Source of the DNA: Acarospora socialis
Lineage: Eukaryota > Ascomycota > Lecanoromycetes > Acarosporales > Acarosporaceae
Assembly (NCBI GenBank): GCA_025617375.2
Contig: JAMYGW020000013.1
Location: 62,001-126,000 of the forward strand
Direction of reading: 5' to 3'
Length of the DNA: 64,000 nucleotides
Shown: piece by piece, positions 12,158 through 20,225 of the stretch
Position numbering within the stretch: position 1 is the first letter of the stretch
Layout: every line of letters starts with the position of its first letter
Notes under the pieces: generated by a model
Seen by the model: only the letters and a program-made list of their open reading frames with translations
The model's database searches: none
Told to the model about the DNA's origin: nothing
Program-made: the position numbers and the translations under genes

Positions 12158-14555
12158 CTACTGCTTCGGCTGCCTAGGCGCCGGTGGATTGCGCAAGTAC
12201 CCGGTATAAGTGCCTGGGTTGTTTGGATCCTCTCTGAGCCTGCTGCCATTACCCGGCTCCGAATTTGCGACTCGGTTCGAGGATTCACTGTTTGTGGTTA
12301 GTGATTTTGCGTCCCCTGGTTCCGGGGCTCGAGGAGGATCTCTCGGCCTTTCTTCGATGAGTTTGGCTGAACGGTCTGCTTCTCCATCACGCTCCGCCTG
12401 ACCCAATCGGCGCCGTTGTTCCTCTTGAAGCTCCCGAAGATAACGAGCCTCTAGTTGAGGCAGGTCAATGACTACTCTCTTGATAAAATGTATGTGCTGA
12501 CTTACCTCTTATCTCCTGAGTCTTTACCGCATAATCCTCTATCTCTTCTTTGGTCAAAACCCGCAGGACAATGACATAGTCAAGCCTTTCTTCGTATCTC
12601 TCGTGACCTTCCTCTAGAGCTTCAGGATTGACGAGCTTGCGGTCAATTTTCGTCCAGCGTGCATTAACAGGTATGCCTTTCTTCCCGGCATCCTTGGGTG
12701 GGGCGACGCCCTCACGCACTGGTGCAGGATCTTCTGGGAATTTCTCCCTCGGTGGTCTGAGGATACCTTTGACAGGTTGCTCTGGCTCCTTCTCCCTTGG
12801 GGGCGAGACCACCCCAGCGCTTCGTGGGCGTACTTCTTTCAGATCAACGGGCTTGTCGCCGACGGATCCTTCACGCGAGGCCCTTTCTCTACTGTCTTCG
12901 TGTTGGTGGCGGTGACTTCGATGCTTTTGCTCTTCCTCTTCATTGTCTCTATCATCATCATCATCATGGACATCAGGTGTCCGCTCTCGAATGTTCTCAT
13001 CTCGTGGATCTCGTTCTTCTCTTTCTCTTTCTCTTTCTCTTTCCAAAGCTTCCCTTTCCCTACGTCGCCGTCGACGTCGCTCCCGGCGCTCTTCCCCACT
13101 GGTATCGTCATCTTGACCTCCGTAATCGGTTGATTTCTTCTTATGTCGGTCCCGGTCATGAGTATCCCCGTTGAGACTCGGCTCATGCGTATTCTTTCCT
13201 CTCCCTTCATGTCGACGGCGGTCCCGGTCCCTGGTGTCTGCGCCAACCAAGCCCCCTGAGAGCCCCGCAGCTACACCGGCAGCAAGCATTTCACCTTCCC
13301 GGTCCGACTTCTTCCTTGATCCCCTGTCGTGGTCATCCCGATCATACGATTCGTCGTCATCATAGTCTCTGCGCCGATGTTCGTGGTCCCGTCGTGACTT
13401 ACTTCTAACTCCATTTCGATCATAGTCATCGTCATCCCAGACTCGATAGGCTTTATTGTCAGGACGCACATCATAATCTCTTCGGTCAACATGGTCATCG
13501 TAACGGGAGGTTTGTCGATGGCGTTCGTAAGGATCATCATAGGCATCTTGATAAGACTCGTAGCCATCATCCAGATCACGTTGATGTAAAGCCACGGGCT
13601 TTCGTGTGGATGTACGTCGCTTCGGGATGTCATAAGGGTCTTCGTTCCTTGGTGGTACGTAGTCGCGGGGACGCTGGTCTTCATTTGCTGCTCTCGAACC
13701 TTGTCGGAGACTATTCGCTCGGGGAATTTTGTCAAAGCCTCGTCGAGACGGAGGAGGTCCTATTTCTCTCATTGCAGGGCCTAGCCTTGGTAGATATTCA
13801 TCCAAGCCTGTCATGCTGAGTGGCCGTTCCCGTCTACCCCCGGTAAGGCTGTCACGGCGTGGTCGAGGCCTCGGGGCCGTATCCCTGTACATTTGCTCCC
13901 GGGGGTCTGTGTAGGAATAGCCATCGTAGGCGTCAATATCTTGGTGCCGCACCAACGGCCCGTTTAAATGGTAGCCTTGTCTTCCATTGTTGGAAGTAGA
14001 GCCCCCATACCCCCCACTATCCATTCGATCTCTCAACTCCATATCACCGGTCTTCAAACGACCCGGGTCCCCAGCATTCGCGCTCGATATTCTTCTGTGA
14101 TCATGCCGAGAGCCGCTAGTAGCTGGAAGAAGGTAATAATCCTCGTCGGTACCGGATCTTGAAGGCTTGGCATGGTGCCCTGGAGCCCTGTCAACCGCGC
14201 TTGTGACAACAGGTCTCACCCGGTTGGGCGTGCTTGTGGGTATTACACTCAAAGGCTTCCTGATCCCCATCGGGTCTGTCTCCAGCGTAGGACGACGTGG
14301 TCGAGTCACAAAGTCATCCCTCAAATTCGCTGATGACAGGTGGTCCTCGTCGTAGTTCCTTGTCAACATCCGTGGTGGTGCTACGATACGGTCTCCGCTG
14401 GATCGAGGTGATGGCCCATAGTCACGATTACCTCTCGAGGGTGGATAGTAGTCATCGTAAGGGGATGGATATGCAACGCTGCCGGTTGAGGACCGCATCG
14501 GATTGACGAGACGGCGGCTGCCTGGAGACGGCGGCCTACCATATCGAGGATCCAT
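12158..14555 (-). CDS. DUF8035-type charged, disordered fungal protein (780 aa)
   Basis: Two exons (12506-14555 and 12158-12450) flank a 55-bp intron with GTAAGT donor and TAG acceptor; 2,343 bp give 780 aa. The protein starts MDPRYGRPPSPG. Over most of its length it is Arg/Asp/Tyr/Ser-rich, with a long acidic-basic tract (RRRRRRREREALERERERE at about residues 490-520) likely to form a single charged helix. The only folded-looking part is near the C-terminus, about residues 635-690: NARWTKIDRKLVNPEALEEG then YEERLDYVIVLRVLTKEEI. I recall this signature as DUF8035 in filamentous ascomycetes. The second exon adds a coiled segment (EARYLRELQEEQRRR) and a Pro-rich tail. No catalytic motif is visible, and a structural or RNA/chromatin-associated role would be guesswork. 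The antisense open frames at 12777-13365 are shadows of the charged repeats. Confidence 0.82.
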
Positions 14556-16459
14556 GGCGGTAGAGGCAAAGGTTGAATGTGAGAGGGAATTTCCGCGGTA
14601 GCGCTAAATCCACCGCAGTTGGAATGTTCAGAGATGTCACCGATGAGTGAAAGGAAAACTGATCGTGACGCAATCGTTGAGTCACGCAGCTGAATCAAGA
14701 GAAGAACTGTCAGCTTCGAATGCTGGACAGGAAAGGACACCCATCGACATCAGCCTCACGGACTCACACCACTGGCTTACCAAGCGTAAGATTTTCTCTG
14801 GAGCCTTCTACACTCCACAAGGCTCCTTGTAAGCCCTAGAGCTGAGATTTCTTTTGCAGTGACAGCCACCAGTGCCCCGCAATGCTTTCGCAGAGCCTCA
14901 AGCCCAACCCCTCGTATTGATTAGAACAAGGTCCTCAGTCAGACTGACAATATCAGGAAAGTGCTGACAGCAAATTGTACAAGCCAGTGAATCTGGAGGA
15001 TGACTCGATCAGTAAGCATCCAATGCTGTCACTTTGAAGTGGGAGTTGGATGACGGTGAAACCGAACCGTATGAGGCGCAAGCAGCGATGCGGCAAAGTT
15101 TACAGCATCAAAGACGATCAAACAATAAACCTGTCAACAGAACTTCCACTGCCGCAGTTCCTGAGGAATGCAGCCGATATGAGAATTTCTGGGCCAAAAA
15201 TATTTATTTTATTCACCAACGATTTGATGATAAAAATACATCACCTTGCATTAGCATTGCCGGCTTGCCACTGCCACTGGTTTAATGATAAACGCCGGAC
15301 AAATGCGAATTCTGAAGAGCACTCCCACGAATTCCGGTGATCATGAAGGAATCAGACTGAGCTCAAGTAGGATTCCGGGCCAAGTGGGTTAAACAATTTG
15401 TCCTCGGGGCCTGCAAGACCTGACTTCTGGCCCCAAGCTTGGAAATCACCCCGTCGTGCCATGCGGACTTTCATGCATTACAGCTGGCCATTCAAATATT
15501 ATCAGACGGGTACTCCGTATAGGATCTTTTTCGTGGCACTACTTCGAAAGAGCATGCTGATACACAAATCAACCATCTGTCATCGTTGAGGGATGATCAG
15601 AACGTAGGGGCATCTTTCCTGATGTGATCGTCCGTATTTCCGTCAATAAGACCATGGCCGTTGAGAGTCTATATATTCGTCTTCTCTGCCGATCTGGAGA
15701 ACTACCATCCAATGCACACCATGGCCGCCCAGGTAAGGTAGACAACCCCGAGAGTATTCGAGTCATTGATTGGACTTATAGAGCAAACCAACCCCGCGGC
15801 CTTTGGCGTGGTCCGTACTTGAAGTATTCGCAGGGCTACCTTACTGGATCCTCTTATGCCTTGATACCGAAAGTGATTCTCTGAGACCTTTCACACTCGT
15901 GGTTTACATGATCGAGTCACAGTTCTGACTACGGAGTTACCTTAGTATAATCTCAGGCCCTCGGACGTATCAATTGATGCAGAATAGGCCAATAGTATTA
16001 TTGTTGTAGGCTCGATGGGTCGGGCAGCTCCAAGCCAGCTGAAACTTGGTGAGGTGGTGTAGACAAGCAAGCTCTTTCTTGCATCTGTGCATGTGAAAGG
16101 CCATAGAAGGCCAATGAGCAAACACCACGAAATCTGGTGGATCTCTTTAGGTCGTGCGTGTATGTGTAACATGACAGGTAGGTAAGGTATCCCACCACCA
16201 ATGCCAACCTTGAAACCCGTTTTTCTTGGGCAAAAAAGAAACAATGCATATGATCTATATTATTCACTAGGGCATAGAATCTTGTACCGCGTTTCTCGGC
16301 ACAAAAGACCCTTTCCTCTCCTCCGGCTTGACATATGGAATAGAATATAATTTCTGATGTTGGCTGGGAGGTTGGCTCCGTTGCCAGCTGAACAAACGCG
16401 CTAAACCGGCGCTAAACGTGCTTAGCGCCTGTAAACAAACCAAAGAAAAGACACGCGAG
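14556..16459. other. Intergenic region between divergent genes
   Basis: The divergent spacer holds the promoter of the DUF8035-type gene (left) and the upstream region of hex1 (right). No supported gene is present. One TACTCCGTA 9-mer lies at 15511-15519. Short open frames lack recognisable features. Confidence 0.5.
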
Positions 16460-16560
16460 AAAGGAAGTCCACCCAGCCTTCTTCATCATATTCACTCTTC
16501 ATCTTCCCCTCTTCTTCACCTTGCTCATCTCTTCCATTCCTCGCCTTCAAGACCCTTGAT
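16460..16560 (+). promoter_or_regulatory. CT-rich core promoter or transcription start region of hex1
   Basis: The plus strand here is strongly pyrimidine-rich (CTTCTTC, CCCCTCTTCTTCACC and similar). Such tracts typically precede the transcription start of highly expressed filamentous-fungal genes. It lies about 1 kb upstream of the HEX1 ATG, consistent with a long transcribed leader. No clear TATA box is visible. Confidence 0.5.
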
Positions 16561-16749
16561 TTCATTATCAATCTTGCATTAGATTCCAGACCCATTGGAA
16601 ACAATTCCATCTCAAGAAATTGAGAAAGATAGAACACGTGTCGCTGGCAACCTGTCAACTTCACCCTTCTCCCCTCACCTCGACTTTTCTTCTCCACCCC
16701 CCCAGAAGCAAGAGTCTCTTCTTGTCTTCCTTTCGAATTGTTACCATAA

Positions 16750-17538
16750 CGGTTCGAAAGGCATTCGAGAAAAGACTCCCTCGAGTCAGTCAATCTGGAC
16801 TTTGACGCCAGAGTCCCGATCCCCTTCAGTGTCTTCCCGTCGTCGTACCGGAGCGACGCTGTCAAAGAGACTACTCAGGTTAGAGTAGAAGGAGAAGCCA
16901 ACCTTCCTCCTCGGACTTCGCGCGTCGGACGGGAAGGTCACCAAACTCGCTACTCTTCCTTCTCCGCCACTCTTCCCGACCGCAAGGAACGTACTCGGTA
17001 CGAAAAGGAAGAGATCACCGTCCGCGAAGAAGACCTCGACCGCCGACCGCGCCGTCAAGAGGAAGTTGACATTCACGAAGAAGAAGAAGAAGGCCGTTAT
17101 CGTCCTCCACACTTCCCAGAAGTCGAACTTTCCAGAGAGCGGTGAGTCGGCAGCCCAATTCTTGTTCCCATCTAGAGTGTGTGGAATAAACAGCACATCT
17201 GCATAACCCTTTTCTTATCCTAGCCTCACACTAGTCGTGTTGACCCAGTAACCTTTCTCCCAAGTTCTTTTCGTGCATGACTGACATCCATCCGCCAACT
17301 TAGCTATCAAGAACCGTACCAACGTTACTCGGAAACCAAGGTTGACATCGAAGTTCCTTCCCGTCATCAAGACAAGGTCCACGAAACTGAGATCGACATC
17401 ACCGAGCGCGAATATCGTAGACGGACTCAGCCAACTTACGACGTCGAATACGAACGTCGTACCTCTCAACCTCGAGAAGTAAGAGTCGAAGCCGAAACCA
17501 AGACCACCGTCGATTTACCAAGCCGTCAACGATCCAAA
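16750..17538 (+). other. ATG-free open frame in phase with HEX1 (translated leader or 5' extension)
   Basis: After a stop at 16747-16749 the frame stays open to 17141, where a GTGAGT donor starts a 162-bp intron ending TAG at 17303. It resumes at 17304 with matching phase and runs into the HEX1 ATG at 17539. This is 209 sense codons with no methionine. The hypothetical peptide is highly charged and repetitive, with V-R/D-V/I-E units followed by P-x-R (RVEGEANLPPR, VDIEVPSR, VRVEAETKTTVDLPSR). A CTG at 16795 has A at -3 and G at +4, making it a plausible non-AUG start. Alternatively an upstream ATG exon or alternative splicing supplies the start; alternative splicing of HEX1 homologues is known in Aspergillus. 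See findings. Confidence 0.6.
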
Positions 17539-18183
17539 ATGGGCTATTACGACGACGAAGGTCATTACCACTCCATCCGTCACGGAATCGAGAGAGCCGC
17601 CGATCGTGTCCTTCATCCCTTCCATCACCATCGTCATGACCGTGAAGAAATTGTCATCGACCGAGAAGACAGCGGCCCGGCTCGTGTGCGCGATGGCGTG
17701 CGTGAGAGCATCCGCTTCATCGAGCGAGGTGGAGGGCCAAACACCATCAGCATTCCCTGCCACCATATCCGAATCGGCGATCTTTTGATCATTCAAGGTC
17801 GTCCTTGCCAAGTCATTCGGATCACCACCTCCGCTCAGACCGGTCAACATCGCTACCTCGGAGTCGATCTCTTCACCAAGCAACTCCATGAAGAATCCAG
17901 CTTCGTGTCCAACCCATCGCCCTCGGTCATCGTTCAGAGCATGCTCGGGCCCGTCTTCAAGCAATACCGTGTTCTCGACATCCGTGACGATGGACGTGTC
18001 GTCGCAATGACCGAAACCGGTGATGTCAAGCAAGGACTTCCAGTTATTGATCAAGGCGGGTTGTGGTCCAGAGTCAACGATGCCTTTGCCAATGGTAGAG
18101 GTAGTGTTCGAGTTTTGGTCATCAACGATGGTGGACGCGAATTGGCCGTTGACTACAAGGTCATCCACGGGTCTAGGCTCTAG
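17539..18183 (+). CDS. hex1: Woronin body major protein HEX1
   Basis: HEX1 self-assembles into the crystalline core of Woronin bodies, peroxisome-derived organelles that plug septal pores after hyphal damage. The 214-aa product begins MGYYDDEGHYHS, matching the usual HEX1 start, and has an Arg/His-rich segment (about 15-70). The conserved eIF5A-like fold follows: ISIPCHHIRIGDLLIIQGRPC, TGQHRYLGVDLFTKQLHEE, and MLGPVFKQYRVLDI with MTETGDVKQGLPVIDQ. It ends in SRL, a PTS1 peroxisome-import signal. It is somewhat longer than the roughly 176-aa Neurospora protein because of the N-terminal basic stretch. No intron interrupts this part. Upstream in-frame exons could add about 190-210 residues. The gene precedes a dioxygenase on the same strand by about 590 bp; no functional link is evident. 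Confidence 0.96.
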   Translation: MGYYDDEGHYHSIRHGIERAADRVLHPFHHHRHDREEIVIDREDSGPARVRDGVRESIRFIERGGGPNTISIPCHHIRIGDLLIIQGRPCQVIRITTSAQTGQHRYLGVDLFTKQLHEESSFVSNPSPSVIVQSMLGPVFKQYRVLDIRDDGRVVAMTETGDVKQGLPVIDQGGLWSRVNDAFANGRGSVRVLVINDGGRELAVDYKVIHGSRL

Positions 18184-18774
18184 GGAAATTGCTATGGTAA
18201 GTTTGTTGTCGTCATCAATGTCGGAGGTTACTCACTAGCCAAGCCTACCCTTGGCAGTCACGACCATCTGAAATTGTCTGCACGTTGGCGATGCATTTTG
18301 AGGAGAGCATGTGTTCTTTACTTTGGTACTTGATGGTGGTCTTCAATTTATTCGGTCGTGGTTGGACATATTCTTCGCTCTAGTCTCCGCAGCCATCACC
18401 GGTCGAATCTTCGATATACACAACAACGGCTACATTAGTACGAAGAGCAAGAGACAGGAGCGCGAATGGAGGATGTGGAGCATGGAGCTGTAATAAATGT
18501 TAGGTAGCGAGACGAGGAGCTGGTCAATGAAGCTGTTTTATCTATTTCGACGTGCCCTGCATTCCTCGTGTTCGTCAGAATGTTCACTTGCCCCGGACGG
18601 GACATCGCGTGCCCAGTCCGTGTAGCCGCGGTCCAACTCCCCACAGCTTCCCCACACCCACCAAACCAAGAGCACTACCTCCGCCATAAGTAACAATGGC
18701 CTCTCAAACCTTCTTCTCCCAGCTCGAGCTTCCCTCTCAGCTCCATATCCACCGTTCTTCCCATCGGCACAACC
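18184..18774. other. hex1 3' region and dioxygenase promoter
   Basis: This short spacer between two plus-strand genes holds the hex1 3' UTR and the next promoter. An ATG at 18696 opens a frame out of phase with the dioxygenase, so it is a possible overlapping upstream ORF. No gene is supported. Confidence 0.5.
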
Positions 18775-20225
18775 ATGGCGACGACAATGACGACGACGAC
18801 CACCACCACCACCACCACAGCCCCAACTACCACTACAGCCGCAGCCCCTCCCCCGCCCACAGACACAGACACAGACCAATTCCCACACATCCCCCCCTTC
18901 CCCCGCACCGTCCCCACCGCGCCGCTCCTCCGCCTCTCCCTGTCCAAACTCCTATCAAACGACGCCACGGAGACCGCCAATCTTTTCCGCGCTGCCAAAG
19001 ACCTTGGATTCTTCTATCTGGACCTGCGAGGCGTGGAGGTCGGCGAATCGATCTTGGAAGATGTGGAGCGGCTGTTTGGAGTCGGCAAAGAGGTGTTTGA
19101 TCTCCCGGGAGAGGAGAAGGAGGGGTATGATTGGAGTGGGGAGGGGAGTTATTTTGGGTGAGTTTTTGGGTGTTTTGAGTGTTTTGAGGTGGGAGGAAAG
19201 GAGAGTAAGGGCTAACGTGTGGTGGTGGGTGGGGGAAATAGATACAAAGGCTACGGCGCGGGCGTCATCGACAAAGAGGGGACGCGGGATCGGAATGAAT
19301 TCTACAACGTACGTGTCTCTGCCCACCTGACCTCCTGCTTCCCACTCTCCCAACCCAGCACCTAGTTGACCCATCACAGGTCTCCAAAAACGACCTCCTG
19401 CACCCAACCTCCCCCCCGCTGCCCTCTCCAGCCCCGCTCTCGTCCCAGCGCCCACTCCTGCAATCCTTCATCCGCAACTCACACACGATCCTGACCCTCC
19501 TCCTCTCGCACCTCTCCACGCACCTCCTCCTCCCTCCCACCTCGCCCTCGTATTTGCCGAATCTCCACCGCCTCACCGCCCTCTCAGGCGACCAGGTCCG
19601 CTTCGTCAAGGCGCCGCCGCAGCCGGAAAATGACAGACGCGTGGCGTTAGGGGCGCATTCGGATTTCGGGAGTCTGACGCTGCTGTTCAATCGCTTGGGG
19701 GGGCTGCAGATCTTGCTGCCGGAGGGGATGCGTGCGGCGGGGGAGGAGGGGGAGCAGGTTGGGACGGGGGAGGACGACGGGCGTGAGGAGAAGAAAGGGG
19801 AGAAGAAGGAAAGGGAAGGGCAATGGGTCTACGTGCAACCGCTCCCCGGACACGCGATCGTGAATCTCGGCGACGCGATGGTCAAGTTCACGAACGGGCT
19901 GCTGCGGAGCTGCGTGCATCGGGTCGTGAATCCGCCCGGGGAGCAGGCGGGCGAGACGAGGTATAGTGTTGTTTATTTTATGCGGGCGGAGGATGAGGTT
20001 GTTTTGAGGAGGTTGGATGATGGGTTGGATGGAGGAGGGGTGATTCCGAAGGGGAGTGATGGGGAGGGGGAGGAGGGGGTGACGAGTAGGGAGTGGGTGC
20101 TCAGGAGGGCATTGGGGAGGAGAATGGTGAAGGGTGGTGAGAGTTCGGGTGGGAGTGAGCAGAGGGGGTTTGAGAAGGGGGGTTGGGAGGGGAGTTTGGG
20201 GACTGAGGGGGTGGGGAGGGAATAA
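18775..20225 (+). CDS. 2-oxoglutarate/Fe(II)-dependent dioxygenase (isopenicillin N synthase-like family)
   Basis: Exons 18775-19157, 19242-19308 and 19380-20225 (introns 84 and 71 bp, GT-AG, phases match) give 431 aa. The N-terminus carries a run of about ten Thr and a Pro/Asp tract, so the start could be the second Met (18787). The non-haem dioxygenase N-terminal segment (FRAAKDLGFFYLDLRG, DLPGEEKEGYDW) is followed by the double-stranded beta helix. There the iron ligands are AHSDFGS (His and Asp, about residue 242) and CVHRV (distal His, about 328), and RYSVVYF supplies the 2OG-binding Arg. A charged Gly/Glu/Lys insert (about 272-300) interrupts the fold. The substrate cannot be inferred, since the family ranges from secondary metabolism to housekeeping. 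The last quarter is extremely G-rich (EGGEQRG-type tail) and probably disordered. Confidence 0.88.

Follow-up and report, generated by a model that had tools for sequence, protein, structure and literature searches.

HEX1 is the founding protein of the Woronin body, whose crystals plug wounded hyphae; most work treats it as a protein of roughly 20 kDa. For V. dahliae, the available part of PMC7762394 gives HEX1 sizes of 21 and 23.5 kDa and splice isoforms of 188 and 209 aa, and remarks that the N-terminal extensions predicted for HEX1 might stem from inaccurate automatic annotation. In P. oryzae, RNA-seq is reported to have found HEX1 transcripts coding for 439 and 417 aa with common start and stop codons (PMC8475275), and in A. 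flavus the S1_Hex1 domain was placed at 419-493 (PMC6371581); in the portions of these two papers at hand, both results agree with long HEX1 gene models. Initiation at non-AUG codons has been described in fungi for other proteins, namely for the N-terminal extensions of CPC1 in Pezizomycotina (Ivanov et al. 2017, PMC5487733) and for peroxisomal 6-phosphogluconate dehydrogenase isoforms (Kremp et al. 2020, PMC7214817), as given in the excerpts available. No word starting with 'hex' or 'Woronin' occurs in the accessible text of PMC5487733, and the accessible sections of PMC9882315, PMC11166925, PMC10894269, PMC11842775 and PMC9549241 contain no long N-terminal form of HEX1. In the open-licence literature, no report was found of a non-AUG HEX1, or of its study by ribosome profiling, reporter or proteomics. 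Non-AUG extended proteoforms are a known kind, with fungal CPC1 as the example.

We analysed the hex1 locus of Acarospora socialis in a window of 64,000 nucleotides (the whole stretch of DNA under study). Our main reading, to which we give a probability of about 0.78 on the sequence evidence, is that a single hex1 mRNA would yield two proteins, a CUG-started long HEX1 of about 408 aa and an AUG-started short HEX1. The features of the locus are as follows.

16747..16749, plus strand: in-frame TAA closing the frame upstream, by codon reading.
16752..16774, plus strand: leader nucleotide element GTTCGAAAGGCATTCGAGAAAAG, in a frame that differs between species; probably not a coding start in the HEX1 frame.
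16795..16797, plus strand: proposed CUG start in the context GTCAATCTGGAC, with A at -3 and G at +4, at the conservation edge.
16797..16816, plus strand: predicted 8-bp hairpin GGACUUUG/CAGAGUCC starting in the CUG codon, from the fold of 16750-16900.
16795..17141, plus strand: extension, first coding part, LDFDARVPIPFSVFPSSYRSDA... to SRER, from relatives of the spliced extension, codons checked.
17142..17303, plus strand: intron of 162 bases, with ATG 17277 and branch site CTGAC at 17281-17285.
17304..17538, plus strand: extension, second coding part, YQEPYQRYSETKVDIEV... to RQRSK, from the open frame and relatives.
17539..18183, plus strand: HEX1 (Woronin body major protein), 214 aa, with AUG in the strong context CCAAAATGG and an SRL (PTS1) end.

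Judged by its sequence, the product of 17539-18183 is certainly HEX1: its PDB matches are named HEX1 or hexA, Pfam finds eIF-5A-like domains, and the protein has an MGYYDD start and a C-terminal SRL. In the PDB fold search HEX1 was listed first, followed by eIF5A entries, with the fit confined to the folded part. On our reading 17539-18183 is a single open frame that needs no intron near MGYYDD, unlike the HEX1 splice isoforms. A search of the organism's own genome for a second gene with the HEX1 tail matched only this locus. Downstream of HEX1, frames were also noted at 18694-20225 on the plus strand, which by their motifs presumably resemble a 2-oxoglutarate/iron oxygenase. Upstream, the minus strand holds at 12465-14603 a highly charged, low-complexity ORF of 696 residues (40% RKDE), which was used as a control for Met.

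The frame leading into HEX1 is made up of 16750-17141 and 17304-17538, together 209 codons that are open and spliced in phase with MGYYDD. An earlier note on this DNA had described this frame and a product of about 408 aa from CTG 16795; its coordinates proved correct on re-reading, and the computed length is 194+214 = 408 residues. The intron between the two parts has a GTGAGT donor, a CTGAC branch site at 17281 and a TTAG end, and the frame hits stops inside it when unspliced; P0010, a relative from metagenome data, seems on our reading to carry the translation of an unspliced intron at this very position. The sole ATG of 16361-17538 on the plus strand, at 17277, is intronic, and our re-count agrees on this with the claim made before. 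The ATG-free gap from 16357 to 17277 is 920 bases long, the maximum of 1,046 gaps on the plus strand (the runner-up is 470) and longer than the longest gap on the minus strand of the window, 499 bases; a geometric model with the window mean gap of 61 expects 0.0003 gaps this long among 1,046. Base composition accounts for part of the depletion, since 14.2 ATGs are expected in 16361-17538 from independent bases and 5.7 from dinucleotides, the latter a partly circular estimate; both lie below the figure of about 18 that the earlier note gave for even base composition. A frame of 15 codons in HEX1 phase, 16357-16404, begins with the final ATG ahead of the ATG-free gap; this ATG 16357 was considered as the start of the long frame and rejected, as TAA follows after the 15 codons.

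Inside the extension, the window's own codon evidence for ATG depletion is moderate. For the window alone, the probability of finding no ATG is 0.13 when the synonymous codons of the extension are permuted and 0.008 when HEX1-body codon usage is applied. NAT before G was found in 0 of 8 cases in the extension versus 8 of 16 in HEX1 (p = 0.022), and set against the extension's other NAY codons the same 0 of 8 is not significant (p = 0.16). It is in the comparison with relatives that the evidence is strong.

With the 209-codon spliced extension as the query, 283 relatives were found at E<=0.001, 120 of which were listed, and the best of the matches listed was 87% identical. Two further queries with relatives gave 246 and 258 matches (120 listed each), and 285 distinct relative proteins were fetched for comparison. 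They fall within Pezizomycotina in the Lecanoromycetes, Dothideomycetes, Geoglossomycetes, Xylonomycetes, Candelariomycetes, Eurotiomycetes, Leotiomycetes and Sordariomycetes, each of these eight classes being assigned by the taxonomy of one source organism or genus. The core LDFDARVPIPFS together with a run-on to MGY was present in 257 of the 285 proteins, those left out being 24 without the core and 4 without a matched MGY start. In the 257 models the extension is 167 residues upward in length, with a median of 221, and always in frame with MGY. The closest relative, Acarospora aff. strigata, is 93% identical in HEX1 and 88% in the extension, and across 13 relatives compared the extension is 46-88% and HEX1 68-94% identical, which argues that the tail is changing faster than HEX1 yet remains recognisable. 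The relatives' DNA was also sought in genome contigs (24 pattern matches) and viral contigs (15), none of which encodes a relative. By these comparisons, the extension is to be regarded as a real feature conserved at the protein level.

Met is missing from this conserved stretch. Over 256 proteins, not one Met occurs among the 57,477 residues of the extension, against 963 in 52,518 residues of HEX1 after its start in the same relatives and 103 in 12,593 for the variable HEX1 residues 7-55, all of these being counts over related sequences and hence not independent, on models that could hide an in-frame ATG where they begin inside the extension. Cys (27) and Trp (10) are also rare in the 57,477 extension residues, and the charged control ORF of the window contains 10 Met in its 696 residues. 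The 257th protein, P0161, has 2 Met, which were rejected as counter-examples because in our judgement they lie in apparent retained-intron stretches. Among the 24 core-less relatives no clear native Met was found inside the extension, and five were ambiguous: P0116, P0143 and P0144 have Met at or beside the join, and the first residue of P0253 and P0256 is a Met in place of the relatives' Val, probably because the gene caller took a GTG as the start. The 4 relatives without a pattern-matched MGY have no Met ahead of the HEX1 part. AUGs in the other frames were checkable in the window alone. Scanning to the HEX1 AUG would require a Met-free extension, which argues that both forms share one mRNA. 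The earlier note had posed the removal of AUGs for scanning to HEX1 and a CUG start as alternatives; the relatives support the two together, by the absence of Met from their extensions and by the conservation edge at the CTG codon.

The place where conservation sets in bears on the start codon. At position 0 of the core Leu occurs in 257 of 257 relatives, and position -1 is Asn in 240, Thr in 13 and Lys in 3, with one of the 257 having no residue before Leu; in this count the search pattern constrained +1 to +11 and left position 0, as well as -1 and below, free. The codons for Asn, Thr and Lys all begin with A, which implies an A at -3, counted from the Leu codon, in 256 of 256, and the Asp after Leu, which at +1 was demanded by the search pattern, implies G at +4. 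In an information analysis of 176 proteins, in which position 0 and positions +1 to +11 were constrained, the values were 0.22-1.43 bits at -25 to -4, 1.54 at -3, 2.56 at -2 and 3.88 at -1, and 4.32 bits at the unconstrained positions +13, +14 and +17. The window equivalent of the conserved Leu is CTG 16795, in AATCTGG, the sole CTG among the 19 Leu codons from this CTG to the HEX1 stop; CTG makes up 23% of Leu codons in the pooled long frames of the window, a mixture of real and shadow frames. A near-cognate codon in good context sits where conservation begins, both the CTG at the Leu position and the AUG-free path in three frames having been read in this genome only. CTG 16795 had been put forward before as a non-AUG start with A at -3 and G at +4, and the conservation edge at this very codon, with the implied A at -3, points to the same start. 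The predicted hairpin GGACUUUG/CAGAGUCC at the CUG codon could help or restrict initiation there; for the whole stretch folded, 16750-16900, z = -1.83, and 9 of 200 shuffles were equally stable.

We propose that a minority of scanning ribosomes would initiate at CUG 16795 (AAU CUG G) with Met-tRNA, giving a long HEX1 of about 408 aa with the N-terminus Met-Asp-Phe-Asp-Ala-Arg-Val-Pro. Most ribosomes would bypass the CUG, scan 582 spliced AUG-free bases and start at the strong HEX1 AUG 17539. Use of the CUG as a start in vivo, and the long:short ratio, are what we infer.

The long protein could also be real but begin at an AUG in an upstream exon, on a minor transcript from an alternative promoter or splicing, which we consider unlikely. 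Of the 257 models, 186 start with a Met that stands 15 or more residues ahead of the Leu, AG dinucleotides stand directly ahead of the conserved Leu codon, and the P. oryzae transcripts for 439- and 417-aa HEX1 (PMC8475275, in the portion available) would fit such an exon. When 90 model pairs with extensions at least 85% alike were compared, 8 had first residues common to both members, but only 4 had the same Met-to-Leu distance and just 3 the same distance and N-terminus, which leaves 3 pairs of the 90 whose first exons match both in length and in sequence. The annotated first exon of the closest relative (P0001) has no significant match in the window; its best match in the leader is KDRTRVAGNL at 16625-16654, in another frame and with no ATG in the window, and its score of 34 is weak and not significant, shuffled sequences averaging 25.5 and reaching 43. 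From this weak match, the leader of the P0001 species may hold an ATG upstream of the CUG. The earlier suggestion of an unseen ATG exon upstream is disfavoured by the discordant first exons of close relatives and by the unmatched exon of P0001. An upstream exon moreover gives no reason for the absence of Met across the extension, because short HEX1 would then need no scanning through it. A CUG-started extension would, in our explanation, account for the discordant automatic first exons at hex1, and the annotated first exon of the HEX1 extension is likely wrong.

Within single species, first-exon models differ for the same HEX1 extension in Penicillium nalgiovense (P0086, P0094) and Diplocarpon rosae (P0132, P0133), a sign of automatic annotation struggling at the HEX1 gene.

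Another near-cognate upstream of the CTG could also start the extension; between TAA 16747 and CTG 16795 the window offers a single one in frame, AGG at 16759. In 60 of 257 models, HSRKD-like residues lie ahead of the core, within 40 residues of it and mostly at one distance, and a longer FERHSRK-like match begins 14 residues ahead of the Leu in 21 of 25; in some species, translation might accordingly begin before the CUG. The bases behind these residues, 16752-16774, lie 20 bases before the CTG and read FERHSRKD, VRKAFEKR and SKGIREK in the window's three frames. With peptide patterns picked after seeing the sequences, versions of the three, all of them continuing in frame into the core, were found in 25, 4 and 5 of 257 proteins, and no version lies within 40 residues upstream in 223 of 257; P0010, P0088 and P0188, from metagenome data and apparently unspliced, carry one version each. 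Of the 34 relatives in which the element was recognised, 9 have it in a frame other than that of FERHSRKD, and a nucleotide element read in three frames would not be a coding start, so that a start common to all species should lie after it. AGG is generally regarded as a poor start codon, and the one at 16759 is followed by C at +4; with an in-frame stop, TAA 16747, also lying upstream, a near-cognate start ahead of the CTG is very improbable.

A search of the genome for GTTCGAAAGGCATTCGAGAAAAG found a single exact copy and a single copy with one mismatch; allowing two mismatches gave 7 hits versus 8 for a reversed-pattern control, which makes no case for a genome-wide motif. The element appears conserved in relatives of several classes despite its changing frame, and could be an RNA or promoter element.

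Least probable of all, and hardly to be expected, is an untranslated leader conserved as RNA or DNA, with AUGs absent only for ribosome access to HEX1: at the nucleotide level the element ahead of the CTG seems conserved, and a hairpin is predicted at the CTG, but the MGY phase is kept in 257 models of varying length (167 upward, median 221), and the extension is recognisable as protein in the 13 relatives compared (46-88% identity).

If long HEX1 is made from the CUG, its added part would be mostly disordered. The extension is 42% RKDE, Pfam gave no match for the tail above cut-offs, and AlphaFold2 predicts HEX1 as folded and the tail as mostly disordered, in keeping with the disordered charged domain foreseen in the earlier note. 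In P0003 the pLDDT block means are 38-46 for residues 11-160, and a weak helix is predicted at residues 164-175, in the conserved IDVTER.YRR segment, with block means of 62 and 72. A tryptic peptide of the HEX1 tail would be VPIPFSVFPSSYR, or VPVPFSIFPSSYR in several Sordariomycetes. We suppose that the long form would enter peroxisomes via its own SRL and co-assemble with short HEX1; SRL ends both forms, so crystals could include long HEX1 as a minor subunit. The exposed, disordered and charged tail might then bind a partner or limit crystal growth, and to assign it a part in anchoring or in the control of size is guesswork. More tentatively still, and with less than even odds in our view, one mRNA might throughout Pezizomycotina give a major short and a minor CUG-started long HEX1 in a ratio set by start-codon stringency, with the long form as a built-in subunit that caps or tethers, its N-terminal motif LDFDARVPIPFSVFPSSYR and charged tail governing how large the crystals grow or how they are anchored, and plug formation would then be tunable by initiation.

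Should a conserved long HEX1 exist, tagging, deletion and antibody studies would need re-reading, and the tail would be a testable candidate part for crystal sizing and anchoring. It would also add a further fungal non-AUG proteoform with deep evolutionary support, its extension being Met-free in 256 of 257 relatives.

Compared with known systems, the locus is much like CPC1 as described in the available text of PMC5487733: both have a long leader with a stop-free in-frame extension (at least 160 codons in CPC1) that is conserved at the protein level. CPC1 has conserved near-cognates, including CUG, in near-optimal context, and the putative start at hex1 is likewise a CUG; in both cases, databases carry the extension without resolving its start. 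Unlike hex1, cpc-1 has, according to the same portion of that paper, two AUG uORFs and a role in amino-acid starvation, whereas the hex1 extension is AUG-free and its product is a crystal-forming peroxisomal protein. The V. dahliae isoforms (PMC7762394, available part) belong to the same gene family and are likewise two HEX1 proteoforms differing N-terminally; there, however, the difference is 21 residues by an alternative splice site with the MGYYDD N-terminus in both, and here it would be about 194 residues ahead of MGYYDD with no splicing choice necessary. As in the 6-phosphogluconate dehydrogenase case (PMC7214817, in the excerpt available), a non-AUG start would yield an additional form of a fungal protein linked to peroxisomes; in that case non-AUG initiation produces the peroxisomal form, whereas at hex1 SRL is on both forms and the non-AUG start would add a long disordered tail.
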